Part shown: positions 2,121 through 57,156 of the stretch, piece after piece
Layout: each line of letters begins with the position of its first letter
Numbering within the stretch: position 1 is the stretch's first letter
Assembly: GCF_000739635.1 (NCBI RefSeq)
Contig: NZ_BATQ01000125.1
Location: 1-64,000 of the forward strand
DNA length: 64,000 nucleotides
From: Verrucomicrobium sp. BvORR034
GTDB taxonomy: Bacteria; Verrucomicrobiota; Verrucomicrobiia; Verrucomicrobiales; Verrucomicrobiaceae
Direction of reading: 5' to 3'
Translations under genes and position numbers: made by a program
The notes under the pieces: model-generated
What the model was told of the DNA's origin: nothing
The model's input: the letters and a program-made list of their open reading frames with translations, nothing else
The model's database searches: none

Positions 2121-3252
<1,132 letters not shown>

Positions 3253-3312
3253 CTTGCGAATGATTCACCCAGAAGCAGGAAAAGTGCCGCACTGATGGAG
3301 AAACCCGCCCCA

Positions 3313-4218
3313 TCATGCCGACCGTACTGGCCCAATGATGGCCTCTGTCATACGCATGGCCTGCGCGTTCGGCTTCACATCATGCACCCTGATGATTTCC
3401 CCGCCCGATTCACGCATCCACGAGGTAAGAGCCACCGTGGGCCACGCGCGATGCTCCAGCCGGGAGTCGCCCAGCAACATGCCCAGCATCGACTTGCGGG
3501 AGACACCCAGGACGAACGGCCGATCCTCCATCCGCAATTGGTCGAACCCGTTCAGCAGTTCCAGATTGTGGGCCAGGGTTTTTCCGAAGCCGAAGCCGGG
3601 ATCCAGAGCCACGCGCAGGGGATCAATGCCCGCCCGGGCCAGCGTGTCCAGCCGCTCGACAAAGAAGTCTCTCACGTCCTGCACAACATCCCGGTAGTAA
3701 GGTTGTGCCTGCATGGTGCGTGGGGTGCCCTGCATGTGCATGACGATCACCCCTGCTGAGGTGCCAGCCACCGCCTCCAGCATGCCGGGCTCACGGAGAC
3801 CGTTCACGTCATTCACAATATCTGCCCCCGCAGCCACGGCCTCCCGGGCCACCTCAGGCTTCATGGTATCAATAGAGATGAGCGCCCGCGTCCGCCCACG
3901 CAGCTCGCTGATGACGGGGACCACCCGTTTGATTTCATCCGCCACGTTCACCGGCTCGGCACCGGGGCGGGTGGACTCACCACCTATGTCCAGCACATCG
4001 GCCCCATCTTCCGCCATCTCCATCCCCCGCTCCACCGCGAGCGCAGTGCCAAAGAACCTGCCGCCGTCCGAAAAGGAATCGGGCGTCACATTGAGCACGC
4101 CCATGACCCAGCCGCGGGTAGTGAACTCATGGTTCTGATGATGGATGCGCCAGAGAGTGCCCATGGGAGGAAATGAAAAGCGCATGGTGGACAGTCCCTT
4201 CCTCCCTTCAAGCGCCAT
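3313..4218 (-). CDS. folP: dihydropteroate synthase
   Basis: 301 residues. It condenses 6-hydroxymethyl-dihydropterin diphosphate with p-aminobenzoate to give dihydropteroate in folate synthesis, the step blocked by sulfonamides. Signatures are GVLNVTPDSFSDGG near residues 40-53, DIGGESTRPGA (about 97-107), ISIDTMKPEVA, DVNGL, DPGFGFGKT and the late GVSRKS block, all in family order. There are about 35 residues before the first beta strand, longer than usual; an internal ATG at 4183-4185 would shorten this to about 24. It points away from the 4345 gene, leaving a 126-base divergent spacer. Confidence 0.95.
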   Translation of the reverse strand: MALEGRKGLSTMRFSFPPMGTLWRIHHQNHEFTTRGWVMGVLNVTPDSFSDGGRFFGTALAVERGMEMAEDGADVLDIGGESTRPGAEPVNVADEIKRVVPVISELRGRTRALISIDTMKPEVAREAVAAGADIVNDVNGLREPGMLEAVAGTSAGVIVMHMQGTPRTMQAQPYYRDVVQDVRDFFVERLDTLARAGIDPLRVALDPGFGFGKTLAHNLELLNGFDQLRMEDRPFVLGVSRKSMLGMLLGDSRLEHRAWPTVALTSWMRESGGEIIRVHDVKPNAQAMRMTEAIIGPVRSA

Positions 4219-4344
4219 TCCGCAGATTCGACAAAATCTGTTTCAAAATACGAGATTCATTGTCCAACAACCTTCCGCTGAAAGTGTCTCAGGCTGCGCG
4301 AGATTCCTCAATCGACAATCCCCCCAACTGATCTACGATTTCCC

Positions 4345-5940
4345 ATGGCCCGGCCTTTTATTCTTCTAACAGTGCTGGTGGCGTCGGGTGTGGGTGCAGG
4401 TCTGCTGATGCAGCAGCTACAAAAGCCCTCCTCCCCATCGTCCCGCCCCGCCCCTTCCTCCTCCCCCTCGTCTGGCCAGACGTCCTCCAGTAATCAATCG
4501 CCAGAGCCAGGGGCGGAACTCGGCTCCATACCCCCACCCCGCCTGCCCGGGTTGGATCCCTCCGTGGACATGGAGGCTCCTCCGCTACCGGGGACTTCTG
4601 GTTCAGCCGAGGAGGTCAAAACGCTGCAATCGCAGGTGACCTACCTGCAGGAACAGGTGGACATCCTGCGCAATGAGAACTCCACCCTGCTGGACAAGCT
4701 GGCCTCTCTGACCGGGAAAAACCCGATTCTCACGCCTCCCTGCAGCCCGGGCATGAAGTCCCCCTCCAACGAGGAGGCACCTGACTTCGTAGGCATCGGG
4801 ATCGAGCTGGTGAAAACGCGCGAGATCCAGGACATCCCCCTGCCCACCCTCTCAGTGGACCGCGCGGAGGTGGAGAATCGAATCGCTGCCTGGCTCGCCA
4901 AGCAGTTTCCGCCCACCTATGGCAAGCAATTCGGCAGGGCGCTCGCCGCGGTCGGCGCGATACCGGAGCCCGTCGATGCCATCGCGCTGAAGGCCGCCTT
5001 CCTCTCCCACCAGATCGGGGGCTGGTTTGATCAGGAGAGCCAGACCCTCCTCATGGCGGAGCATGGGAGCGAGCGGGAGAACGCCCTGGCCCTGGCCTAC
5101 GGCTATCTCTTCAAGCACTACGGCAAAGCCGTCTTTCCCGCCGAGACCAAGCCTCTGACGCTGGATCAGCGCCTCGCCCGGGAGTCCCTACTGGCAGGCG
5201 ACGCCTCCCTGACGCGCTTCCTCCACGCACTCCGCCACCCTGACAAAGGGGGCGGCGGCGGCGTCGGCGAGGATCCGGACGACCCCTCCCGGGCGGTCCC
5301 TATTCCCAATTTCCTGCGCGAACTGGAGTTGCTCCCCTTTGGGATGGGGTTCGACTTCATGCAGTCCATGCACAGCATCGGCAGCTGGGAGCAGGTGAAT
5401 GCCACCTACGACCGCCTCCCCACAGCGTCCGCCGAGATCCTGGATCCCCAGCTGTACCTGGCTGAGGAGCCCTTCCGCCCCCTCACCCTTCACCTTCCCG
5501 AAAAGAAGATCGCTGGTGCTGCCCCCGTCTGGGAGGATACCATGGGACCGCTGGGCATGGTGCTGCTGCTGAAGCAGCACGTGGCCGAGCCCATCGCCGC
5601 TGGCACCGCTCCCGGTTGGGCGAATGACACCTGGCTCACCTACTCAGCGGGAGAAGGGACCCAGCGCGACCACGCTGTCTGGCAGACCCTGTGGAAGGAC
5701 AGCAATGCGGCGGACGCCTTTTTCTCCGCCATGCGCACCGGGCTCCTCAGCCGGTACAAAGGAGCCACCCCCTCAGCCAAGGCTGCCAAGGGAGTCTTTC
5801 AGCTCGATGGCCCGGAGCGTTTCGTGGTCATGGAGCGCACCCACAACGGTCAGGGCGTGCTGTTCATCGATGCCGCCACGGAGGCGTTTGCCAGGGCTGC
5901 GGAGAAAACCCTCCTGACACCGTCAAACTCGGGCAAATAG
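4345..5940 (+). CDS. membrane-anchored, degenerate metallopeptidase-like protein
   Basis: 531 residues. Residues 4-23 are hydrophobic (signal or anchor), followed by a Pro/Ser-rich spacer (25-60) and a coiled-coil-like stretch (about 90-120). The region from about 200 onward follows a family of bacterial zinc-peptidase-like proteins: an ALAYGYLFKHYGK segment, ARESLLAGDAS, LPFGMGFDFMQSMHSIGSW then VNATYDRLPTASAEILDPQLY, and a late W-x(4)-GPLGM block. In active members the first of these segments carries HExxH; here no HExxH or equivalent is visible, so the protein is probably catalytically dead. A GGGGG loop interrupts the middle. The partner or role is unknown; an envelope-located scaffold is my inference. 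Confidence 0.7.
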   Translation: MARPFILLTVLVASGVGAGLLMQQLQKPSSPSSRPAPSSSPSSGQTSSSNQSPEPGAELGSIPPPRLPGLDPSVDMEAPPLPGTSGSAEEVKTLQSQVTYLQEQVDILRNENSTLLDKLASLTGKNPILTPPCSPGMKSPSNEEAPDFVGIGIELVKTREIQDIPLPTLSVDRAEVENRIAAWLAKQFPPTYGKQFGRALAAVGAIPEPVDAIALKAAFLSHQIGGWFDQESQTLLMAEHGSERENALALAYGYLFKHYGKAVFPAETKPLTLDQRLARESLLAGDASLTRFLHALRHPDKGGGGGVGEDPDDPSRAVPIPNFLRELELLPFGMGFDFMQSMHSIGSWEQVNATYDRLPTASAEILDPQLYLAEEPFRPLTLHLPEKKIAGAAPVWEDTMGPLGMVLLLKQHVAEPIAAGTAPGWANDTWLTYSAGEGTQRDHAVWQTLWKDSNAADAFFSAMRTGLLSRYKGATPSAKAAKGVFQLDGPERFVVMERTHNGQGVLFIDAATEAFARAAEKTLLTPSNSGK

Positions 5941-22925: not shown

Positions 22926-23942
22926 TCAGGATCGGGGGTTAAAGTGAGACTCGGACGCGAGCTTCTGCCAGAGTGCGAGTTCTTGATCGCTCAATTGAGT
23001 GGGCACCTGAATGTGGGCGATCACGTAGAGATCGCCTCGCTCGCCCGATTTGCCTTGGGGCAAACCCTGCCCTTTCAGGCGAAGCTGACCATCCTGGGTG
23101 GTTCCAGCGGGGATACGCACCTTGATGCCGCCCTGAAGACCACGCACGACCACCTCCGTGCCCAGCACAGCCTCCCAAGGGGCTAGATCGAGGTCGTAGT
23201 AGAGATCCCCTCCCCGGGCGCGAAAATCAGGATGCGCGGCGTAGCGCACCTTCAGGTACAAATCCCCTGCTCCGCCGCCCCCTGTCCCCTCTCCGCCATG
23301 GCCCGCCACACGAATGCGCTTGCCCTCCGGTGCCCCTGGGGGAATGCGCACCGTGAAGGACTTTGTGTCCTGCTTTCCAGTGCGAGGATCGGTGGTGGCC
23401 AGGGAAATCGGACGCTCCGTTCCATGCAACACCTCATTAAGCGTGACCAGGATGTCCCCCTCCACATCGTGCCCGCGTCGCGGTCGGTTCGCCTGTCGGT
23501 GCATTTCTTCGGCAAACCCTTCCTCATCGCCAAATCCGTGGAACTGGCCGCTGCGACCGCCGCCGCCAAAATACTGCTCAAAGAAGTCACTGAAACCCGT
23601 GCCATCGAAATGGAACTCCTGGGCAGAACCTTGGCCCTGCGCTCCCGTAGCGCTTGCGTAGCGTCGTCCTCCACTCCATTGCGGCGGCGCCTGCCCCTGA
23701 TACTGCTCCGCTTCGCGCCAGTTCGACCCAAGAGTATCGTACTTCTGACGCTTCACGGGATCACCCAGCACCTCATAGGCCTCGTTGATCTCCTTGAACT
23801 TCTCCTCCGCCGCCTTCTTGTCCTCAGCCACATCCGGATGGTGTTTCCGGGCTAGCTTGCGGAAGGCCTTCTTGATGTCTTCCTCCTTGGCGTCCCGGGC
23901 GACACCAAGAGTTGCGTAGTAGTCCTTGAATTCCACAGACAT
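22926..23942 (-). CDS. cbpA: CbpA-type DnaJ co-chaperone
   Basis: 338 residues. The N-terminal J-domain (5-70) has HPD at 35-37, then a Gly/Gln/Ser-rich linker (about 75-150), and a DnaJ C-terminal domain from about 155 without the CxxCxGxG zinc finger, which fits CbpA rather than DnaJ. The end has [12 protein letters not shown]. It recruits and stimulates DnaK. It is coupled to the CbpM-like gene six bases downstream. Confidence 0.95.
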
Positions 23943-24145
23943 GATACGGTTGGAAGCACAGGTCTGAAGCTGTCACGGACAAAAAATCTTCGCTTCCCCG
24001 CCCGCCTCGCAACACAATTGTAATTGACCGGTATCCACTGTGAAAGACAATGGCAAAAACCGCTTGGCGTCAACCTTCCCTCATTGCTGGGCCTGCCTCG
24101 AAGACCAACGAGGGAACTCGCACCAAGTATAGCCGCCCGCCTCCG

Positions 24146-24472
24146 ATGAACTCCCCCTCTCTGCAACAATCTGACAACTCCGACCCAACGGCAAAGCTCC
24201 TGGCCCAGAAGGATGCTGTCCTGCTCAGCACCAAGAATTACCTTCGAGCAAAGCTGACGCGCTGGATCATACGCACCGCTATAGGCGCAATCCTGTGCAC
24301 CTTCCTCGCAACCCAGTTCACTTGGGGCAAATGGGTGCTCATCGTCTGGCTCCCCTTGGCCATCTTGTCTTTGACCACCCTCCTCTTGGGCAACCGTAAG
24401 ATGCAACGCATGGCGGCAAAAATCGAAGACACCGTTGCCGCCATTCAATCAAACAACTCGCCGGAACGCTGA
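24146..24472 (+). CDS. small two-helix membrane protein
   Basis: 108 residues from the ATG at 24146; a frame back to 24050 adds 32 basic, disordered residues and is unlikely. Two hydrophobic segments are seen (WIIRTAIGAILCTFLATQF and WVLIVWLPLAILSLTTLLLG) separated by a short loop, then a charged helix. Nothing links it to a known family. It is divergent from cbpA. Confidence 0.6.
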   Translation: MNSPSLQQSDNSDPTAKLLAQKDAVLLSTKNYLRAKLTRWIIRTAIGAILCTFLATQFTWGKWVLIVWLPLAILSLTTLLLGNRKMQRMAAKIEDTVAAIQSNNSPER

Positions 24473-24527
24473 CTGGCGCACCATTGTAAGAAGCGAAACA
24501 CCCCCACCTCTCCTTGTCCTACCCTCC

Positions 24528-25145
24528 ATGAAGCAACTTCTGGCTCTGTGCATGATGGCTGTCGCTGGACTGCCAGCCTCAGCGGCCGAATCCTGGTTTA
24601 CCTGCACGATCGCCGCCGAGAGCGTCACCATTCGCGAGGGAGAGGTGCCCTGGATCAAGGTCAGAATCGGCAACCATCTTGGTAGAGATGTGGTCTTGGT
24701 AGGCAGCCTGGATGGCTCAAGCTATGGGATGCGCTATCCGAAGTGTGGCTTTGAACTCAAGGATCCCGTCGGAAAGCCGCTCAAGCTCTCTCCCGACTCC
24801 CGGTGCGGCAACATGAACGAGCTTCGGGCCGAGGACTTCGTTACGGTGCCCACCGGAAGAGATTTTGATCCGTACGGACCCGGCTTCTTTGGCGCGTGGC
24901 AGATCCATCAGTTTTCCCAGCTTCCGCCGGGAACGTACATCGTCAGATTTTACTATCAGACCTCCACGAAAGGGATGCAACAGTACTTCGGCGACGAACA
25001 GATGTCGGCAGAACCAAAGGTCTCACCGGCGATCCAACAGCTGTACGAAAAGGTACCCGGCCTCAATTTGAGGAGCAATGAACTCAAGATCACCGTCACG
25101 GCCAAAAATTCCGGGTCAGTCCAGCCCGCAACCCGTGCGAAATAA
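24528..25145 (+). CDS. secreted hypothetical protein
   Basis: 205 residues from the ATG at 24528, which starts a signal peptide (MKQLLALCMMAVAGLPASAA). The mature part is a single beta-rich domain with phrases such as VRIGNHLGRDVVLVGSLDGS, and LPPGTYIVRFYYQT, typical of immunoglobulin- or transthyretin-like envelope domains. No catalytic motif is visible. It is convergent with the RAYT gene, 12 bases between stops. Confidence 0.65.
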   Translation: MKQLLALCMMAVAGLPASAAESWFTCTIAAESVTIREGEVPWIKVRIGNHLGRDVVLVGSLDGSSYGMRYPKCGFELKDPVGKPLKLSPDSRCGNMNELRAEDFVTVPTGRDFDPYGPGFFGAWQIHQFSQLPPGTYIVRFYYQTSTKGMQQYFGDEQMSAEPKVSPAIQQLYEKVPGLNLRSNELKITVTAKNSGSVQPATRAK

Positions 25146-25157
25146 GCTCAAAGCACC

Positions 25158-26228
25158 TCATACCACCCCCGTCCGTGGAGCACGGAAGGTGAACAGACCC
25201 GCGAACGCCCCGCCCTTCATGGGCCTCGCCCCCTGCTTTCGTCGGGCATCAAATTGTTCACGACGGGCTTCGAAGAACCCATCCACAAACGTCCTTCGCC
25301 CCAGGGCCACGCCTTCGGTGAAATACGTCACCCGATGCCGCAACGTCTCTGCCAGTGTGAGTGTGCCGCCTTGGGCGTGCACCTGCTCTACGACCTCGCG
25401 CTTGATCCCCTTGCGCAGCACCTGGCTGTCGGAACCGTGACCACCTCGAACCTCCTCCCCTTGACCAAAGAGCCACACCCGATAGCCAGAAAGCACTCGG
25501 TCCGCACTGGGCAGCCGCTGCGCGGCACCAGACAGATTCCGCTCGTGCGCACGATGCTCGTTGGTGATGGTGTAAAGGGCTGACAAAGCCTTGCGCCCAC
25601 CCGCCACCGCCTCGGCATAGCTACACCAGCGGTAGTCCTTGGGATCATCCACGAGTCCCGCGCGCAGCGGGTTGAGATCAATATACGCACTCATGATGGA
25701 GAGAGTGGCCAACTCACCTTCCAACAGCACGCTGGTGAACCGCTCCTCCCAGAGCGTGCCCTTGCGGCTCTCCCGCTTATTGAACCAGAGACTGAAACGC
25801 TGCTTCAGTTCTTTCATGAACTGGCTCACATCCCACATTCGGCCCAGGTACCTCTCTTTGATTTCATCGGCCGCGCCGTTATGCCCTTGGCTGCGAAATG
25901 TCTCCAGCGTCTCTTTGAGCATCCGCACTGCCGGCTTGGAATAGATCAGTGCGGCCTGCTTGAGCAACCAATCATCAGAGAACCCCTCCCCCTCCGGCCG
26001 CTTCCTGACCTCCACCAGGATGTGGAAGTGATTGGACATCACGCAGTAAGACAACACACGCACCTGGCAAAAGCCCTCATAGGCCCGCATGAGCCGGACA
26101 AACTGCTCCTTCTCCTCCGGCCCAAACGCCAACCGCCGCTCCACCACCCTGGAAATACAGTGATAGTAGGCAACCGGAACCATCGGATCGGCAAAGTAGC
26201 GGGGCGAGGCCATGCTCGCCCATCGCAC
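25158..26228 (-). CDS. REP-associated tyrosine transposase (RAYT, IS200-like Y1 HUH family)
   Basis: 356 residues. The HUH metal site is SNHFHILVEV (H67, H69), preceded by YYHCISRVVERR, and the conserved block AYIDLNPLRAGLV carries the presumed nucleophilic tyrosine. RAYTs are domesticated single-copy relatives of IS200/IS605 that nick REP hairpins. The C-terminal 120 residues are longer than the minimal family and unrecognised. Two copies of aaatagcctgtct lie just upstream (26261-26326), and small hairpin repeats occur elsewhere in the window, so its substrates may be among them. Confidence 0.9.
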   Translation of the reverse strand: MRWASMASPRYFADPMVPVAYYHCISRVVERRLAFGPEEKEQFVRLMRAYEGFCQVRVLSYCVMSNHFHILVEVRKRPEGEGFSDDWLLKQAALIYSKPAVRMLKETLETFRSQGHNGAADEIKERYLGRMWDVSQFMKELKQRFSLWFNKRESRKGTLWEERFTSVLLEGELATLSIMSAYIDLNPLRAGLVDDPKDYRWCSYAEAVAGGRKALSALYTITNEHRAHERNLSGAAQRLPSADRVLSGYRVWLFGQGEEVRGGHGSDSQVLRKGIKREVVEQVHAQGGTLTLAETLRHRVTYFTEGVALGRRTFVDGFFEARREQFDARRKQGARPMKGGAFAGLFTFRAPRTGVV

Positions 26229-26260
26229 ACTAGATATTTGTAGTCAATCGATTCCCCTAC

Positions 26261-26326
26261 AAATAGCCTGTCTTTTAGTGAGTGAGAGTAAGAGTGATCG
26301 CCTTGATCCCCATAAATAGCCTGTCT
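26261..26326. repeat. two direct repeats upstream of the RAYT gene
   Basis: The 13-base word aaatagcctgtct occurs at 26261-26273 and again at 26314-26326, 53 bases apart, between the starts/ends of the RAYT and LtaS-like genes. An 11-base part (tagcctgtctt) also appears at 879-889. No hairpin is formed by the word itself. They may be terminal or flanking sequences of a RAYT unit. Confidence 0.5.
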
Positions 26327-26378
26327 AATTGGAGGAGAGATGGCCAAATAGACCGACTCCAGTTTCAGGCCTGCGCAC

Positions 26379-28562
26379 TCATCGAACTGCGCTCGCCTTG
26401 GCCACTCGGGCCTGCCCCGCCTCCACCCCACCCGCGGACGATTCCACTCCATCGATTCGGTAACGCCTGTTCATGTAGAGATCATCGGCCACCTGAAACA
26501 ACGCCGTGGCGTCATCGACTATCGGGGCGCTGCGGGGGTCCACGCCGGGCAGTGGCGCCATCTTCCCACTTTTGGGATTCCCTCCAAAGAACTCCATGCT
26601 CTGGTTCAACCCAAACACGACCATCCGTTCATCCCGATAGGACGCGACTTCCCGATTGTGGTGCATCAGCACCTTGGCAAAGGGAGTCTCAGGGGTGTGC
26701 AGAAGATCCCTGCCGAAGAAGAGAGATTCGTAGGGCTGCCCGGTGAGTCCCAAAATGGTCGGCGCCACGTCCAACTGGCAGGCCAGCATGGACTGACGTT
26801 GCGGCTGCTTCACTACAGCGGGGCCAAGTACGAGCATGGGGATCTCATAGCTCTTGATCGGGACCGCCTGGCTTCCGTAGACCCGCGCCCCATGGTCTGC
26901 CACCACGACAAACAGCGTGTCCTGCCAGAAGGGTTCCTTCTTCACCTCCTGGAAGAAGCGTCCCAGACACCAGTCCACATAGCGCACAGCGAATTCTCTC
27001 CGATGCTCATCTGGGCTCTGCGAAATCCGCCCTTGAGGATAGTCTGGCGCCACTTTCCCATCTTCGGGATGCAGCGCATCCAAAGGCGACGGCCCACTTG
27101 CGGGATAGGTAAAAGGCACGTGGTTTGAGACAGACAGCATCGTCAGGAGGAATGGTTTCCCCGTCTCATGCATTGACCTCATTTCCAGGATGGCCCGGGC
27201 ATAGAGGTCCTCATTGCTGACGCCCCAAGCATTCGTGAAGACAGGCTTTTCGAAGTTCCCCTGATGCAGAAAGCGCTTCCACCCATTTTTGATCGCAAAG
27301 GGACCCATGCCGTCGAACAGGCTGCGTCCGGCATACATGAAGAGTGTCTCATACCCCTGACGGGTCATCACCCGGCCCAAGGTCTCGACGTTCTCCGTCC
27401 GGTCGCGCGCGACAATACTGTCACCTGGGAGCGGCGGAAAGCTTGCCAGAATACCCTCGAACCCGCGAATGGTCCGGTTGCCGTCGGCCCAAAGGTTGTC
27501 AAACAGCCAGCCTTCCTCGTTTGCCAGCCGGTCCAGGTGCGGAGTGAGGGTATGAGGAGTGCCGTCTTTCTTGGTGCGGCCCAGACTCCCCCAGAACTCG
27601 CTGCCCAGACTCTCTTCCATGAGCAGACACACGTTGAGAGGCCGGGAGCCCGGCCGTCCATGAATCTGACGGCGGAGATTGTAGACATCGTGCGGGTCCA
27701 CGTAGGTCGAGTCCGGCGTGGCCAGCAGCGCCTTCACCCGGCGGTAGGCTGCCTCACGGTCCATGTGGGGATAGAAGGCAGTGTAGTCAAGATTTCGCGT
27801 CACGGCCGCCGTCACACCAGCGACCAGCCCGTTGTTCCCCAGCTCGTTCATCACCCGGTCATGACTCTGCTGCCACGGGACCAGAGGCAGAGTCGCCGTA
27901 AGCAGGACCACGGGCAACACCCAGCTCAACGCAGATCCAGCGCGCCGCGGTGAAGAGGCGGAAGAACTCCGGGCCGTCTGACGGGCCGGGCCTGCCAGCT
28001 TCAGCAGCAGCCAGGTGATCACTGAGCCCCCTGCCATCACGCCTCCTAGGATCCAGCCCAGCGGAAACGACTGGTACATGTTGGCAAACACCTCATGCGG
28101 ATAGATCAAGTAGTCGATTGCCACCGTGTTGAACCGAGAATTGAACTCGGCAAAGAAATTGAACTCCGCCACCAGCAGGAACACCTGGAGCAGCCAGGAA
28201 AACGCCAAGAAAACGGGGAGTAGCGCACGGGACCATCTCCCGGGAGTCTTTGGTCCGCGGCTCGACGTCATGGCACACCACAACCCAAGCGGTGTACTCA
28301 GCAGCAGAGACACCACCAGATCCCGGTGCAAGCCCACCAAAAAAAGGCGCGCGTAGGAGCCCAGAGGCTGCGGCTCCACTGGGTGGAATCTCGCTACGAG
28401 CAACACCCGCACCAGCTGAAATCCTACGAAGAGGAACAGCGCATTCCACAAAGGCAGCCGGAACCGGCTCACTACCTCCATCAGACGGACGCGGGCCGAC
28501 CGCGGAGGAGCGGAAGGCGTAGAACTAGAGGAAGAAGGAGCAACATCAGAAGGGCGCGACAT
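26379..28562 (-). CDS. LtaS-like phosphoglycerol transferase / sulfatase-family membrane protein
   Basis: 727 residues. Five membrane segments occupy about 36-230, then an extracytoplasmic alkaline-phosphatase-fold domain: VCLLMEESLGSEFW with metal ligand E317, GNRTIRGFEG with nucleophile T364, VVVADHGARVYG and the C-terminal LDVAPTILGL. LtaS, MdoB and EptA relatives transfer phosphoglycerol or phosphoethanolamine to glycans or lipids. In a diderm the likely acceptors are periplasmic glucans or LPS. It is a single minus-strand gene; a weak TTACAG-N17-TAGATC promoter-like pair lies about 40-60 bases upstream. Confidence 0.9.
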   Translation of the reverse strand: MSRPSDVAPSSSSSTPSAPPRSARVRLMEVVSRFRLPLWNALFLFVGFQLVRVLLVARFHPVEPQPLGSYARLFLVGLHRDLVVSLLLSTPLGLWCAMTSSRGPKTPGRWSRALLPVFLAFSWLLQVFLLVAEFNFFAEFNSRFNTVAIDYLIYPHEVFANMYQSFPLGWILGGVMAGGSVITWLLLKLAGPARQTARSSSASSPRRAGSALSWVLPVVLLTATLPLVPWQQSHDRVMNELGNNGLVAGVTAAVTRNLDYTAFYPHMDREAAYRRVKALLATPDSTYVDPHDVYNLRRQIHGRPGSRPLNVCLLMEESLGSEFWGSLGRTKKDGTPHTLTPHLDRLANEEGWLFDNLWADGNRTIRGFEGILASFPPLPGDSIVARDRTENVETLGRVMTRQGYETLFMYAGRSLFDGMGPFAIKNGWKRFLHQGNFEKPVFTNAWGVSNEDLYARAILEMRSMHETGKPFLLTMLSVSNHVPFTYPASGPSPLDALHPEDGKVAPDYPQGRISQSPDEHRREFAVRYVDWCLGRFFQEVKKEPFWQDTLFVVVADHGARVYGSQAVPIKSYEIPMLVLGPAVVKQPQRQSMLACQLDVAPTILGLTGQPYESLFFGRDLLHTPETPFAKVLMHHNREVASYRDERMVVFGLNQSMEFFGGNPKSGKMAPLPGVDPRSAPIVDDATALFQVADDLYMNRRYRIDGVESSAGGVEAGQARVAKASAVR

Positions 28563-28686
28563 GAGGATTCTGTCACGCTATCGGCCCGATCTAACGGTGC
28601 GGTGACAATCCTGTAACATTTGAGTTAGACTCTCGGAAAGATCCGCATTGGCAATGCCTGAGTCGCTCGCGCGAACTCCCCCAAAC

Positions 28687-50277: not shown

Positions 50278-50787
50278 ATGAACCGCCGTCACCTTTTGGG
50301 AGTTGTCTTCATCACCAGCAGCATGGGTTGCCAGTCCCGGCCGCATGCTGCTGCCGATTCCCAATCCGCGTCTCTGTCGCTGTCACCCGCGACCATCACC
50401 CGACTGGCAAAGGCGGGGATTCCCAACTGCACACGCGTCGCGGCTTATGCCATCAATCGCCGCGTGAAGCTGCCCAGCCCCAACGCGACCCTGGTGATCG
50501 ACGGGACGCTCAACCCTGATCGTCATCCCCTGGAAGGTCGCGCTTTGACCGACCGACAGGTGAATGCCTTTCTGGATGCAACCACAGGGAACGAGCATAC
50601 GGGAACTCCCTCTTATTGCTTTTATCCGCATCACTCGATTGCGTTCTACAAAGCAGACGGCACCCTCTCGTCGCACTACACCATCTGCTTTAGCTGCCAG
50701 ACCCATTCGGCGTCAGCAGGCAAGTTTGTCGATCAGCCCGATTTCAAGGCCCTAGGTCGTCTGTTTGAAGAGGTGAAGTTGCGGTAA
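50278..50787 (+). CDS. lipoprotein of the CFSC family (paralogue 1)
   Basis: 169 residues. A lipoprotein signal (MNRRHLLGVVFITSSMGCQS) puts the lipidated cysteine at 18. The mature part has VAAYAINRRV, LVIDGTLNPDRHPLEGRALT, LDATTGNEHTGTPSYCFYPH, and HYTICFSCQTHSASAGKFVD. The block C-F-x-P-x-H-x-I-A-F-Y-x(2)-D-G and I-C-F-S-C is shared with the gene at 51444. A conserved CFxC of this sort suggests a disulfide or metal site. Function unknown. Confidence 0.75.
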   Translation: MNRRHLLGVVFITSSMGCQSRPHAAADSQSASLSLSPATITRLAKAGIPNCTRVAAYAINRRVKLPSPNATLVIDGTLNPDRHPLEGRALTDRQVNAFLDATTGNEHTGTPSYCFYPHHSIAFYKADGTLSSHYTICFSCQTHSASAGKFVDQPDFKALGRLFEEVKLR

Positions 50788-51443: not shown

Positions 51444-51929
51444 ATGATCAGGCGTCGCCATTTCTGCACCCTTCTGGCCGCGAGCACTGCCGGATGCCAG
51501 CACCAGCCAGTGCCCTCCAGCCCCTCTCCGAGTCTTGCCATGACAGAGGCCACGAAGGCGCGTCTGGCAAAGGCGGGAGTCAAGCATTGTGAACGGGTGG
51601 CGGCGTATGTCCTCAATCAGAGCGTTCCTTCCCCCTCACCAAGCCTGACCCTGTTGATCGACGGAAAGCTGAACCCCGATCGTTCACCTCTCGAGGGGCG
51701 GACACTGGATGACAGGGAGGTAAACACTCTGCTGGATGCAACCACGGGCAAGAACCACCCAAGTGCCCATGCCCGGTGCTTCCATCCCCGCCACGCGATT
51801 GCCTTTTACAGACACGACGGCGAAATGGTAGCCCACATGAACATTTGCTTCTCCTGTCGCGGATACCGTGCCCAGGGCATCAAGGTGGTGAGGGAGCCCG
51901 ACTACGATGCACTGAGACGCCTCTTCTGA
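51444..51929 (+). CDS. lipoprotein of the CFSC family (paralogue 2)
   Basis: 161 residues with a lipoprotein signal (MIRRRHFCTLLAASTAGCQH; cysteine 18). It matches the gene at 50278 closely in VAAYVLNQSV, LTLLIDGKLNPDRSPLEGRT, LDATTGKNHPSAHARCFHPR, and NICFSCRGYRAQGIK, so the two are tandem paralogues split by the 50825 gene. The C-terminal block REPDYDALRRLF parallels VDQPDFKALGRLF. Function unknown. Confidence 0.78.
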   Translation: MIRRRHFCTLLAASTAGCQHQPVPSSPSPSLAMTEATKARLAKAGVKHCERVAAYVLNQSVPSPSPSLTLLIDGKLNPDRSPLEGRTLDDREVNTLLDATTGKNHPSAHARCFHPRHAIAFYRHDGEMVAHMNICFSCRGYRAQGIKVVREPDYDALRRLF

Positions 51930-52445: not shown

Positions 52446-54626
52446 TTGAAAAACCTCGTGCTCCGCCAGCCGCTTCCCCTCCTCCTGTCTCTCACAGCCC
52501 AGTTCTCCGTCACCTTGCCAGGCTCCGCCGAACCACCCAGGGTGCCAGCCCTGGTCCTGGACGGACAGACCCACCAGGCCCCTGAGCTGGATGGCGTACT
52601 GGACGATGCCTGCTGGCAGGCGGCCACCCCGGCCAGCGACCTCCGCCAGGTGTTTCCCCGGGAGGGAGCCACGCCCGGAGACGTCACCGAGGTGCGCTTC
52701 GCCCACGATCACAAGCACCTCTATGTCGCCATTCGTTGTGATGACCGTGATGCAAGTCAAATCACAGCGCGCGAGCTGCAGCGCGACTCATTCAGCGGAG
52801 AGTCCTTTCCCGCCGACGACTTTGTCCAGATCGTGATTGATCCGTTCGGGCGGCAGCGGGACGGCTTCCTCTTTGCCGTGAATCCACTGGGAGCCATGAC
52901 GGACGGCCGCATTGAAAACAGCACGACCACCGTGGTGGAGTGGGACGGCATCTGGGATGCACGTGCGAAGCGCGATGCCCGCGGATGGACTGCGGAGATG
53001 AAGATCCCCTTCAGCACGTTAAGCTTTGACCCCGCCCGCGACTCCTGGGGGGTAAACATCCAGCGGCTCATCCGCCGCCGTGAAGAGATGATCCGCTGGG
53101 CACAGCCGACCCAGTCCCGCGACGGTGACTGGCTCACAGACATCGGCCGCCTGGATGGCATGACCCAGCTCGACCAGGGCCTGGGGCTGGAACTCAAGCC
53201 CTACACCGTCCTTCGCCATATGGATAGCAAGGCGGATGGCAGTACCACAGAACTCCGCGGCGGTTTCGACGCCAGCTGGCTCATCACTCCGGCGCTGACA
53301 GCCACCATTACGGTAAACACTGACTTCGCCGAGGCCGAGGCCGATGTCCGTCAGGTCAACCTGAGCCGTTTCCCCCTCTTCTTCCCGGAGAAGCGCGACT
53401 TCTTCCTGCGAGACGCCCCCTACTTCAGCTTTCCCACCAACACCAGCCTGCTTACCCCATTCTTCTCCCGGAACATCGGCCGTAGTGCTGCCGGGGCTCC
53501 TGTGGACATTCTGGCAGGGGCAAAGTTCACCGGTCGGGCCGGACCCTACACGCTCGGCATTCTGGATGTACAGCAGGATGGCCACGATGGCCTGCCAGAC
53601 AAGAACCTCCTTGTGGCCCGGGTAACGCGCGAGCTATCTGAGGAAACAACTCTGGGCATGCTGCTCACCCATGGGGACCCGTATCAGGGGGGCGACAACA
53701 CGCTTTTCGGCGGAGATCTCACCTGGCGCACTGCTCGATTCTTCGGCAACAAGAACCTCTACACCACCCTATGGGGACTGGGCAGCGACGATGACCAGTC
53801 CGGCCGGGATGCCGCCTTTGGCTGGAGCGCAGGCTACAGCAACGCCCCCTGGGACATCTTTGCCACCGTCAGTCAGATCGGCGATGACTTTGACCCGGCA
53901 CTCGGTTTTCTGGAACGCCAGGGCGTACGGGAATACTTGCTCGATGCTGTGTATCGATACGAAATCAACAACTCCTGGTTGCGCAGCTTCAACATACGGG
54001 TGGCGCCGTATCTGATCACCGATCTGGATGACCGGCTGGAATCCGCCAAACACGTCCTGCCCGGCCTACGCTGGGAGCTGGAGAGCGGGGATGAAATCGC
54101 CTTCTGGCTCAATCACAAAGAGGAGCAGCTCTTTGAGCCCTTTGACATCCGTCCCGGCAATCTCATCGAACCCGGCGACTACAAGTTCAACAGCGTCGAG
54201 GGCGAGTTTGTTGGAGCTCCCTCCCGCATGCTGGCCCCCTCCGCCGGCTTTGAGATCGGCGACTTCTACAACGGTCAGCTGCGCTCCTTCTGGACCCAGA
54301 TCGACTTCCGCCCCTCACCGCATGTATTCGCCAGCATTGGTTATGAGCAATACGGGGTGGAACTCCCTGGCGGTGATTTCACCAGCCGGTTCCTGACCGC
54401 ACGATTGAACCTGGCCCTTTCTCCAAGGCTGTCCTGGAACACCCTGGCGCAGTATGACAATGAGTCCGACACCTTTGGGGTGAACAGCCGCATCCGCTGG
54501 ACCGTGCGTCCCGGCACGGACATCTACTTCATTGTGAACCAGGGCTATGCCGTGCAGGACAAGCGGCGGTTGAAGTACGTGCAGTCTGAAGCAGCGCTCA
54601 AGGCGGGCGTGACGTGGAGATTCTAA
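52446..54626 (+). CDS. DUF5916 / CBM9-like outer-membrane protein
   Basis: 726 residues. The start is TTG at 52446; no ATG is close. A signal peptide (VLRQPLPLLLSLTAQFSV) precedes a CBM9/DOMON-like domain (about 35-210; LDGVLDDACWQAATPASDLR, VAIRCDDRD, FVQIVIDPFGRQRDGFLFAV, GWTAEMKIPFSTLSF), then a long region of alternating strands with VNLSRFPLFFPEKRDFFL, and a C-terminal GVTWRF ending in phenylalanine, which fits an outer-membrane barrel. The DUF5916 family has no known function. It follows the terminator by 15 bases. Confidence 0.9.
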   Translation: MKNLVLRQPLPLLLSLTAQFSVTLPGSAEPPRVPALVLDGQTHQAPELDGVLDDACWQAATPASDLRQVFPREGATPGDVTEVRFAHDHKHLYVAIRCDDRDASQITARELQRDSFSGESFPADDFVQIVIDPFGRQRDGFLFAVNPLGAMTDGRIENSTTTVVEWDGIWDARAKRDARGWTAEMKIPFSTLSFDPARDSWGVNIQRLIRRREEMIRWAQPTQSRDGDWLTDIGRLDGMTQLDQGLGLELKPYTVLRHMDSKADGSTTELRGGFDASWLITPALTATITVNTDFAEAEADVRQVNLSRFPLFFPEKRDFFLRDAPYFSFPTNTSLLTPFFSRNIGRSAAGAPVDILAGAKFTGRAGPYTLGILDVQQDGHDGLPDKNLLVARVTRELSEETTLGMLLTHGDPYQGGDNTLFGGDLTWRTARFFGNKNLYTTLWGLGSDDDQSGRDAAFGWSAGYSNAPWDIFATVSQIGDDFDPALGFLERQGVREYLLDAVYRYEINNSWLRSFNIRVAPYLITDLDDRLESAKHVLPGLRWELESGDEIAFWLNHKEEQLFEPFDIRPGNLIEPGDYKFNSVEGEFVGAPSRMLAPSAGFEIGDFYNGQLRSFWTQIDFRPSPHVFASIGYEQYGVELPGGDFTSRFLTARLNLALSPRLSWNTLAQYDNESDTFGVNSRIRWTVRPGTDIYFIVNQGYAVQDKRRLKYVQSEAALKAGVTWRF

Positions 54627-54742
54627 GACAGGAGAAATAAAAGCCCTTCGGCACTTCACTCAAATTTGCACAAGCCGAGTCGCGGCAGCAGGGCGAAACC
54701 TCCGCTCACGACCCCCAGTCTTCGACTCCCCACAGTGCCCCC

Positions 54743-54960
54743 AAAGCGGCGGTTCCCGCACGCACTCCTAAAACGCTTCGCGTTCAGGTGGTGGAAGTGC
54801 TTGGGATGAAGCGGATCTGGGAGCTTACGATGTCGGAGGGAGAGAGAGACGCAAGCCATCCAGGATGTCCTCCACCTGGCGGCGTAGCCGCTGTGGAGTG
54901 CGTGCGGGAACCGCCGCTTTCGCACCCCCTTGTGATCTCCTAAAACCCAAGCACTTCCAC
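54743..54960. repeat. interleaved inverted and direct repeats
   Basis: Four elements: A (54743-54768) is matched exactly over 26 bases by its reverse complement A' (54895-54920); B, gtggaagtgcttggg (54791-54805), is matched over 15 bases by B' (54946-54960); the 10-base word ctcctaaaac occurs directly at 54765-54774 and 54937-54946. The order A-B-A'-B' is interleaved, not nested. No frame reads through as a recognisable protein. The stretch is near the DUF5916 gene end and the siderophore operon end. Confidence 0.85.
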
Positions 54961-55079
54961 AGAGCCCATCAGACGGCTCACTGGAAACCGTTCGTAGTTC
55001 AATCTTTAGATTGCTTCATTGGGAACGCCACCGCCCGCCTCCGCTCCAACGACCGCTCCACCTTGTCCACATCGGTTGG

Positions 55080-55212
55080 AAAACGGTGTCAAGCCACCGT
55101 ACTCCAAGACGCTTCGCGATATTCGGACCTGTTGGAGTCAGCAATGTCATTTCGCAGGCAGCATACCGATGCCCGATCTCCATCACTCCATCACTCCATC
55201 ACTCCATCACCC
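55080..55212. repeat. second diverged repeat copy and an octamer tandem repeat
   Basis: 55081-55120 (aaacggtgtcaagccaccgt then actccaagacgcttcgcga) resembles the A-element plus actcctaaaacgcttcgcg at 54743-54781, so it is a second, diverged copy. At 55181-55212 the octamer catcactc is repeated four times (last unit catcaccc). From 54627 to 55214 no gene is supported. Confidence 0.6.
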
Positions 55213-55214
55213 CT

Positions 55215-55541
55215 CTACCCCCACCACGCAAGGGCCGGGGCCAGGCTCAGGGCTACCAGCCCCACCGCTGGCAGCACACGGGGCGCATAAGTCAGCAGGA
55301 AGGTGACCGCCAGTCCAGCTACTGCCAGCATGACCGTCCAGGCGACAAGATCCGCCGTCCACTGCCGGGATGTCAGCGCCAGTCCCAATGCCGCCAACAA
55401 GCCTCCCGCGCCCAAGAGTCGCCAGACCGCCCTGCCCGCTGGAGCAAGCTCCCGGCCAAACACCCTCCGGTGATGCAGCGGCATGGCCACGGCCAGACAG
55501 GCCAGGGAGGGAAAGATCAGGGTCAACAATACGCCACTCAT
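55215..55541 (-). CDS. DUF3325-type small membrane protein
   Basis: 108 residues from the ATG at 55541; longer frames overlap the PepSY gene. Three or four hydrophobic segments (VLLTLIFPSLACLAVAMPLH; LLGAGGLLAALGLAL; LVAWTVMLAVAGLAVTFLLT; AVGLVALSLAPALAWW). In siderophore-receptor operons such a protein follows PepSY genes as DUF3325. It is the last gene of this operon, 25 bases after PepSY. Confidence 0.78.
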   Translation of the reverse strand: MSGVLLTLIFPSLACLAVAMPLHHRRVFGRELAPAGRAVWRLLGAGGLLAALGLALTSRQWTADLVAWTVMLAVAGLAVTFLLTYAPRVLPAVGLVALSLAPALAWWG

Positions 55542-55566
55542 GATTCGATCAGATTCGAGCCTCCTC

Positions 55567-57156
55567 TCAAGCAACCTCAGATGCCGGTTCATCCTGCGGA
55601 GCAGACGGTCGCGTCAGGCTCTTTTCCGGCTGCTTCACCTTCTGCCTCGTCAGCCGCACGGCCGCCATCCACGCTACCAAGCCCAGCAGCAGAACGGCCA
55701 CATCAAACGCCGCATGGGCCCACTGCCCCGCCTGCATAGAGCCGCGCAGATAAGAACCCGCTGTGAATGCGTCCAGCAGCGGCAGCCCCGAAAACAGGAA
55801 TGCCACCAGGATCAACTGCTCCCGCCAGGCTCTCATCACGGGCCGGACGCAGACATGCAACAAGGCCGCCCCCCAGGCATACAGGAAACAATCCACCTCC
55901 CAGTCACCGCGCCCAACCAGCGACGCGGGAAGCAGCCGGTTGGCCCAAAACAAGGCGCCAATGGCAATGAACAGGCCCGCGATGGTGGCGAGGTTCAACC
56001 TCTCCACCAGCCAATGACCGAAGGGCACCCTTCCGGCACTGAGATGCCGGTTGCGACGTTTCAAAGTCCAGAGCACCAGACCGGTGGCCACAAGCACCGA
56101 TCCCATGAGCCCCATGACGAAGAACCCCCAGCGCAGCCCGCTCCCCGCGAAACGCGCCAGATGCAGACCATAGATGACACTGTGAATGGCGGTGACGATC
56201 CCCTTGGGCTCCGTTTTCTGCTCTACAGCCTCGCCGGTCAATCCATTGAACTCGAGCCTCGCTGGTCGCTGCATACCGACCCCGCCTGTATCAAAACGGG
56301 AAAAAGCCACCGAGGCCTCCGGCGTGTTCCGCGAGGACACCTCCAGCCTACGCACGCCTGGTCCCTCTCCCGCTGTCCAACTTGACTGCGCTTCGTCGTA
56401 CAGGCGCAGGATCATGGCCAGATCCGGACTGCCGATTGGGTTTTCGCCCGCCATCTTGACCGCAGGAGGCGGCGTGCCAGCCTCCTTCTCCTCAGGCAAC
56501 ACCTTCTCCGCCCATGGCAGATACATGTGCATGAAGATGACCAGGGCCGAGTAACTGATGAGCAGGTAGAAGGGCAGCGCCAGCACCGCAGTGACGTTGT
56601 GCAAGTCCAGCGTGGTACGCGGGCCGTTCCTTCCGGATCGGAAGGTGAAGAAGTCTTTGAAGAACTGGCGATGCGTGACGATGCCGCTAATCAAAGCGAG
56701 GAACATGAACATGGCCGCGGCCCCCGCCAGATAGCGCCCCCACGGGTGTGGCAACTGCAGCTGAAAGTGAAAGCGGTAGAAGAACTCGCCTCCCCGCGTG
56801 TCCCGCACTTGTGGAGCCGGGCCGGACTGATGCAGAGCAGGCAGCACCTCCCGCTTGAACCCCTGCCGCCCCGGTCCCTCCTGCCACCAGACGGAGGCTG
56901 CACCGGAACGCGCATCGGGCAGCTCAACGCCCCAGCGTCCGGCCTTGGGGGCAATTTCCTGCAACCGCGCAAGTCCGGCATGCATCGTTTGGCGTTCTGC
57001 AGAATGAGCCGGCATCTCCGGCTGCATCCACCGGGTGATTTCATGGCGGAAGTAGGTGGCGGTGCCGGTCACCATGATGGCAAACAGCACCCAGCCGAGC
57101 AGCAGACCTGTCCACGTATGGAGCCAGGTCATGGATTGGCGGAAAGTTTTCTTCAT
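55567..57156 (-). CDS. PepSY-associated membrane protein (siderophore-iron reductase type)
   Basis: 529 residues. PepSY_TM layout: TM1 WLHTWTGLLLGWVLFAIMVT (about 10-30), a large periplasmic loop, TM2 and TM3 (about 150-220 with SYSALVIFMHMYLPW), a cytosolic loop, and further segments to the C terminus. His residues in TM1 (H13) and around the second segment (H186, H209) are heme-binding candidates. Proteins of this kind (PiuB/FoxB type) reduce ferric siderophores at the inner membrane. It overlaps the frame of the DUF3649 gene only marginally. Confidence 0.88.
   Translation of the reverse strand: MKKTFRQSMTWLHTWTGLLLGWVLFAIMVTGTATYFRHEITRWMQPEMPAHSAERQTMHAGLARLQEIAPKAGRWGVELPDARSGAASVWWQEGPGRQGFKREVLPALHQSGPAPQVRDTRGGEFFYRFHFQLQLPHPWGRYLAGAAAMFMFLALISGIVTHRQFFKDFFTFRSGRNGPRTTLDLHNVTAVLALPFYLLISYSALVIFMHMYLPWAEKVLPEEKEAGTPPPAVKMAGENPIGSPDLAMILRLYDEAQSSWTAGEGPGVRRLEVSSRNTPEASVAFSRFDTGGVGMQRPARLEFNGLTGEAVEQKTEPKGIVTAIHSVIYGLHLARFAGSGLRWGFFVMGLMGSVLVATGLVLWTLKRRNRHLSAGRVPFGHWLVERLNLATIAGLFIAIGALFWANRLLPASLVGRGDWEVDCFLYAWGAALLHVCVRPVMRAWREQLILVAFLFSGLPLLDAFTAGSYLRGSMQAGQWAHAAFDVAVLLLGLVAWMAAVRLTRQKVKQPEKSLTRPSAPQDEPASEVA

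Follow-up and report, generated by a model that had tools for sequence, protein, structure and literature searches.

REPs are common among bacterial repeats. REPINs are inverted REP doublets able to form one large hairpin, and MITEs consist of inverted-repeat ends around a short non-coding core. Y1 transposases are known as associates of REPs (PMC2817692), and in the large survey of PMC3733652 most REPs fall into the GTAG and CGTC tag classes, of which, according to its Table 1, the GTAG class alone is associated with transposase genes. The same survey presents Opitutus terrae, a member of the Verrucomicrobia, as rich in GTAG repeats, and its main text holds no word starting with GGAG. The repeat described here is a GGAGT-tagged, two-hairpin, REP-like repeat, with REP-array-like layout and constraint, that lies outside the GTAG and CGTC families as defined; among the literature matches listed, no title deals with such repeats in Verrucomicrobium.

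The locus belongs to a 64-kb stretch of DNA (hereafter the window, always meaning the whole stretch) from the home genome (G000, 8.58 Mb in 200 contigs). A 588-bp intergenic island at 54627-55214 is bounded there by the ORFs 52446-54626 (+) and 55215-55592 (-), which converge on it according to the ORF list of the window, and it contains two copies, placed back to back, of a two-hairpin DNA repeat that is dispersed in many copies in Verrucomicrobium (Table 1). A coordinate check bears out the layout reported in the original prediction, namely a 26-nt arm A with its exact reverse complement A', a 15-nt arm B with its exact reverse complement B', their interleaved order A-B-A'-B', and a 10-nt direct repeat, ACGCTTCGCG, at 54773-54782 and 55109-55118. 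When the island was shuffled 60 times with dinucleotides preserved, the longest exact inverted repeat reached at most 14 nt (mean 8.6), so the 26-nt A/A' is not a product of chance; extended, its arms reach 53 nt at 81%. The diverged A-like copy announced near 55081 also exists (55080-55105), with the layout AAA, hairpin, ACTCC found in A, and its hairpin, unlike that of A, places it in a second subfamily. Units 1 and 2 form an outward doublet spaced by 64 bp (54800 and 54864), and unit 2 and the second-subfamily unit to the right of the doublet face each other. Folded as single-stranded DNA, the doublet is predicted to be more stable than 200 shuffles (z -7.4), and nested folds, obtained with programs that predict no pseudoknots, pair A with A' and carry side hairpins. 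At 55178-55209 the island also holds a tandem of the octamer CTCCATCA, a stretch that matches many closely spaced places in G003. Elsewhere in the window, the adjacent ORFs 50278-50787 and 51444-51929 are similar to each other (repeat of 71% over 105 nt), probably as a tandem gene duplication.

Table 1. Repeat features of the island, in window coordinates (units 1 and 2 belong to the R1 training set, so their R1 matches hold by construction)
Feature	Position	Strand	Basis or remark
Unit 1 (half-unit)	54715-54802	-	R1 81 bits; nhmmer 56 bits; hairpin-1 end towards gene 52446-54626
A: GGAGT tag, hairpin 1 and CTTT of unit 1	54743-54768	-	Sequence; strict genome pattern
Hairpin 2 of unit 1, AACGC-TTC-GCGTT	54772-54784		Sequence; helix covariation over 72 units
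B: 15-nt word in variable spacer of unit 1	54791-54805	-	Two exact genome copies only, both in the island
Palindrome hp0 at the centre of the outward doublet, CCTCCGACATCGTAAGC on the - strand	54823-54839		Counts of hp0-like words
Unit 2 (half-unit)	54861-54949	+	R1 91 bits; nhmmer 68 bits
Hairpin 2 of unit 2, GCGGC-GTA-GCCGC	54879-54891		Sequence; covariation
A': GGAGT tag, hairpin 1 and CTTT of unit 2	54895-54920	+	G002 homology begins at 54894
B': same word as B, adjoining the core of unit 2	54946-54960	+	Exact-copy search; altered in G002
Unit 3, second subfamily, AAA-ACGGTG..CACCGT-ACTCC-AAGACGCTTCGCG	55080-55119	-	Without HMM match; kept in G002

The interleaved order had been taken to imply either pseudoknot capability or a rearranged pair of mobile units, and the genome-wide searches bear on both. 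A is repeated across the home genome, and the motif ACTCCN{0,2}AARACGCTTCGCG occurs at 29 places as against 0 in the control. B has no exact copy beyond the two in the island, and it is not a dispersed word, because its near-copies with up to 2 mismatches (48 places) are outnumbered by those of the reversed control (64). Thus, of the three words whose joint absence elsewhere was to count against the prediction, this holds for B alone and not for A or the motif. With up to 3 mismatches allowed, B finds no match in the 6-kb stretch of G002 that contains the orthologous site and one in the stretch of G003; B/B' is a local accident. The uniqueness of B, together with its missing counterpart in the orthologous stretch, favors a rearranged pair of repeat units over a pseudoknot. 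Although the A, B, A', B' order is genuine, a structured RNA in which A/A' and B/B' form a pseudoknot is extremely improbable and was rejected, given that B is confined to this locus, B' is altered in G002 and the pairing is unconserved. A search of 54300-55600 against Rfam gave no family at E up to 1. As to the rearranged pair, A/A' does represent two outward units of a dispersed repeat family; that these units were mobile is something that we infer.

The history of the site points the same way. In G002, identified as Verrucomicrobium sp. BvORR106 by thousands of exact shared 100-mers, homology to the window stops at the end of the first gene, is followed by 645 bp unmatched by the window that include an open frame of ~190 codons, and restarts at 54894, at T|GGAGT of unit 2, from where it runs at 80.7% over 819 bp and on as far as the second gene (query 2449-4711 matched in G002). 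The hairpin 1 stem of this ortholog is different, and no left unit is detected in it by HMM. In an 8.5-kb stretch of G003, the queried part is matched only over the first gene and ~14 bp beyond. Among G000, G002 and G003, the A/A' doublet is present at this site in the home genome only, and the A-B-A'-B' pattern is therefore best read as a product of rearrangement.

The building block of the repeat is a half-unit of ~85 nt composed of CACCTG, hairpin 2, the tag GGAGT, hairpin 1 and CTTT. Placed side by side, the copies read CACCTGG, hairpin 2, TGT or TTT, GGAGT, hairpin 1, CTTT and then often CCTTGTGA..GAACC, whereas a variable spacer precedes the half-unit on its 5' side, often with a palindrome resembling CCTCCGACATCGGAGG. 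An hp0-like word (at most 5 mismatches of 16) is located 5' of 66 of 105 half-units, compared with 5 when a stretch 700 bp upstream is scored as the control. The tag, when read from 72 aligned units with a simple regular expression, is GGAGT in 50 and GGGACT or similar in 9, with 13 unread. The units are high-copy and mainly extragenic. The strict pattern occurs at 62 places in the home genome (28 forward, 34 reverse) against 0 for its reversed control, and the 588-bp island used as a query yields 96 matches there. Across the window plus 60 fetched loci, the nhmmer HMM detects 107 half-units, which is no genome count, as these loci were picked for repeat hits. When 400-kb samples drawn without bias were scanned with R1, G000 gave 3 half-units, of which two scored weakly (27 and 20 bits), and G003 gave 8, confined to 2 of its 20 stretches. 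By heuristic ORF calls, 20 of the 107 half-units lie mostly inside ORFs of at least 200 aa, compared with 1969 of 2750 random 80-mers, and the corresponding figures are 33 versus 2149 for ORFs of at least 150 aa and 70 versus 2354 for those of at least 100 aa.

Both hairpins covary and are under constraint. Over 12 pairs in 72 units, 93.5% of cells are paired versus 76.3% after shuffling, and changes on both sides affect 152 cells versus 49 (sd 4.9), values that none of 500 shuffles reached in either case. Three of five measures of a palindrome kept by compensatory change lie beyond all 500 shuffles; the two unremarkable ones are the number of pairs with change on both sides (6, a value reached by 119 of 500 shuffles) and the number of further pair types (15, reached by 435 of 500). 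Shifting the partner by one column leaves 27-34% pairing, by two 33-43% and by three 51-71%, the highest value belonging to the shift of +3. It should be noted that related rows can inflate the covariation test, and that the pairing percentage may be flattered by the route from 107 half-units to 91 listed (16 dropped for low score or for being cut by an end) and on to the 72 aligned rows (19 left out, several with a longer hairpin 2 or low scores). Covariation and intergenic bias, along with the position of the island between converging genes, would suit sites that selection maintains for a function in DNA or RNA, for instance as bidirectional terminators or as nucleoid or gyrase sites. This explanation is nonetheless very unlikely in view of the high turnover of the units, the lack of an Rfam match and the orientation of the neighboring genes, which for 56 clusters is codirectional in 32, convergent in 15 and divergent in 9, against a background of 106, 37 and 32, by a heuristic that double-counted some gaps and, misled by a spurious ORF, placed the window among the codirectional cases. 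With a gene-orientation context so close to background, a terminator role was rejected.

The units alternate in the manner of BIMEs. Within the loci selected for repeat hits, there are 27 inward pairs of neighbors closer than 330 bp, 23 of them at 200-229 bp (extremes 159 and 316), and 11 outward pairs closer than 400 bp, all at 63-77 bp, as against a single same-orientation pair closer than 400 bp; alternation and regular spacing, by which BIMEs are recognized, are thus both present. Some inward pairs enclose partly conserved asymmetric cores, with CCTTGTGA..GAACC and GACACAGGACTC. The narrow spacing of the inward pairs and these cores could mean that the ~210-bp inward pair was the mobile entity, a MITE whose tag-hairpin halves would be the terminal inverted repeats of a lost transposon, but single halves and outward doublets exist as well, and no autonomous parent was found in a search that covered Y1 genes.

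Turnover at other sites was followed with coding flanks at 19 further loci, mostly chosen because no element-bearing counterpart had turned up among the BvORR106 loci compared, a choice that biases the outcome towards absence; among 20 syntenic stretches recovered from 15 of these loci, a half-unit is present in 12 and absent in 8. Five junction sets read by eye have the appearance of short-homology deletions or of recombination between repeats, so insertion draws no support from the absent sites. The two flank alignments share 9 bp in L165/L233, within a TTGGAGT repeat, and 7 bp in L119/L238, and these overlaps could be target duplications or mere homology. As target duplications they would suit a MITE, but several junctions fall within or adjoin the halves, and together with the single halves and outward doublets this makes a MITE decidedly unlikely. 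At L163 (2589-3018), ~430 bp near the unit are present in G000 and missing from BvORR106 (L193, 4619-4624), and this segment holds another dispersed repeat (GTCGACGTNAGGAGGCACTA..), which occurs in 17 distinct contexts among the fetched loci of several genomes.

Orthologous copies also differ in their hairpin arms. Of 64 flank-matched half-unit pairs across genomes, 7 were flagged as identical in tag and hairpins, although in many of the remaining pairs one or both members could not be parsed, and some matches are paralogous. Nine differing pairs were picked and aligned, with overall identities, among those counted, from 222/321 (L144/L178) to 293/320 (L161/L243). In L149/L171, L121/L196 and L110/L211, both complementary arms of hairpin 2 have been replaced and the adjoining bases are the same; CGA-CGAAG-TCG versus ATG-CGAAG-CAT, for example, is seen in two separate loci. 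The two units of L116/L167 each have one pair with both of its bases changed, and a different loop, and in L161/L243, L144/L178 and L163/L193, one member has a TCCCGA..TCGGGA block replacing the right arm. This block is found in hairpin 2 of 12 of the 107 half-units, on at least 6 different left arms, and immediately 5' of TGGAGT in 8 of the 12. The ninth pair, L164/L201, is a poor alignment (151/299 identical) and was not counted as an arm exchange. The arm changes could be ordinary gene conversion.

In the search for a partner enzyme, Pfam profiles gave 15 Y1 matches in G000 and 87 in four relatives, and 45 match loci from these five genomes were examined (the 15 of the home genome and 30 of the 87, some genes giving two matches), each reaching ~1.5 kb to either side and scanned within about 1 kb for hairpins with perfect stems of at least 6. 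An inverted GGAGT pair surrounds the Y1 gene at none of the 45, and the HMM, which needs no perfect stems, adds only one half-unit each in L296 and L298. GTAG hairpins, by comparison, stand inverted on both sides at nine loci (L062, L064, L069, L072, L306, L307, L311, L314 and L318), some of which may be chance at stems of at least 6. The first four of these belong to the home genome, where Y1/RAYT-like genes are located between GTAG-tagged hairpins. Canonical REP/RAYT systems with the GTAG tag thus seem to coexist with the GGAGT repeats, and among the loci examined the latter lack a known partner enzyme. The window itself encodes a 361-aa Y1 (HUH) transposase at 25161-26243 (-), with many family copies in G003 and a few in G000 and G002. 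No flanking GGAGT pair accompanies this family in 20 fetched regions and window 23501-28600, and half-units in two of the regions (L322 and L324) lie on one side of the gene only. Classical RAYT-mobilized REPs, whose units would be moved by some Y1 transposase of these genomes despite the odd tag, would explain the REP-like layout and covariation, and Y1 genes are indeed present, some beside GTAG-tagged hairpins. This explanation is unlikely in light of the tags around those genes, and a RAYT as the partner was rejected on the missing inverted GGAGT pair at the 45 home and relatives' loci examined.

Relatives carry the repeat to different degrees. At E up to 0.001, R1 has matches in 19 of 57 genomes, the home genome counted: at least 77 in each of G000 (its own training units included), G002, G003 and G004, 33 in G014, 22 in G037, 16 in G029, 10 in G042 and at most 9 in each remaining genome. 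The strict pattern is found at 95 places in G002, 46 in G003, one in G004 and none in G014, and its near absence from the last two indicates that the sister-genus matches are of a diverged kind. Against a genome collection of 84,980 species, from which the home genome or near ones were perhaps excluded, an exact pattern retrieves 46 stretches, from BvORR106, Haloferula sp. BvORR071 and one Verrucomicrobiota MAG. A wider GGAGT class is a lead. TTGGAGT ahead of varied hairpins recurs in random samples; in that of G003, 6 of the 9 12-mers above the dispersal threshold carry TTGGAGT or its complement, whole or in part, and the G000 sample has no GGAGT-bearing 12-mer at the threshold. GGAGT with perfect stems of at least 7 is not enriched in either 400-kb sample, which counts against a wide superfamily as defined, in a test that misses the bulged hairpin 1; GTAG with perfect stems is enriched in the G000 sample. 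At four G003 loci (L273, L276, L287 and L289), GGGTTGGAGTACCG or similar is followed by different hairpins (CTTTTAAGCGG, ACTTCAGTCGG and TCCCGCATGCGGGA). We regard as possible, and only tentatively, that the repeats constitute a third, GGAGT-tagged REP superfamily of Verrucomicrobium and some related lineages, spread by a non-RAYT enzyme, in which hairpins would be renewed by arm exchange, with complementary arms replaced at one fixed position between the hairpin 2 loop and the tag as the flanks stay orthologous.

The explanation that we prefer, which takes in the observed copy number, covariation, intergenic bias, alternating layout, syntenic presence and absence, and replaced arms, is that the island is probably part of a BIME-like mosaic of REP-like repeats, once dispersed in trans as folded single strands and later reshuffled and lost. 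The units would have been dispersed by an enzyme acting in trans that would recognize tag and hairpin in the way that RAYT transposases recognize GTAG REPs. Afterwards, copies may have been reshuffled and lost as units recombined or templates were switched between them, the breakpoints falling at GGAGT, within hairpin 2 and on the CTTT side of hairpin 1, and one such event would have put unit 1 next to unit 2, giving rise to the A-B-A'-B' pattern. Recombinational reshuffling and loss at the units are better supported than the mode of dispersal.

A further tag class with two hairpins would give another case in which to ask how REPs lacking a known transposase originate, and the arms replaced between orthologous copies record, in nature, recombination linked to hairpins, readable across related genomes. 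With MITEs the repeats share inverted-repeat ends and a short non-coding core, but any target duplication is ambiguous, and a parent element was not seen among the Y1 genes searched. Like REPINs, the window doublet is predicted to fold as one large hairpin; it departs from REPINs in its central palindrome and side hairpins and in a partner transposase not having been found. As described in PMC3733652, CGTC REPs are likewise tagged palindromes that occur as dimers and have no transposase association, but their stems are 8-9 bp and mainly one dimer type is seen, whereas the GGAGT repeats have another tag, two hairpins, and both inward and outward pairs. From GTAG REPs, whose tag is GTAG or GTGG, the GGAGT repeats differ in the tag itself, in a second covarying hairpin ahead of it, and in the missing inverted pair around the Y1 genes of the 45 loci examined. 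In the features that PMC2817692 and PMC3733652 describe for GTAG REPs and BIMEs, the resemblance is nevertheless close: the GGAGT repeats, too, are short tagged hairpins, mainly extragenic and high in copy, arranged in alternating pairs whose stems vary with the pairing kept.
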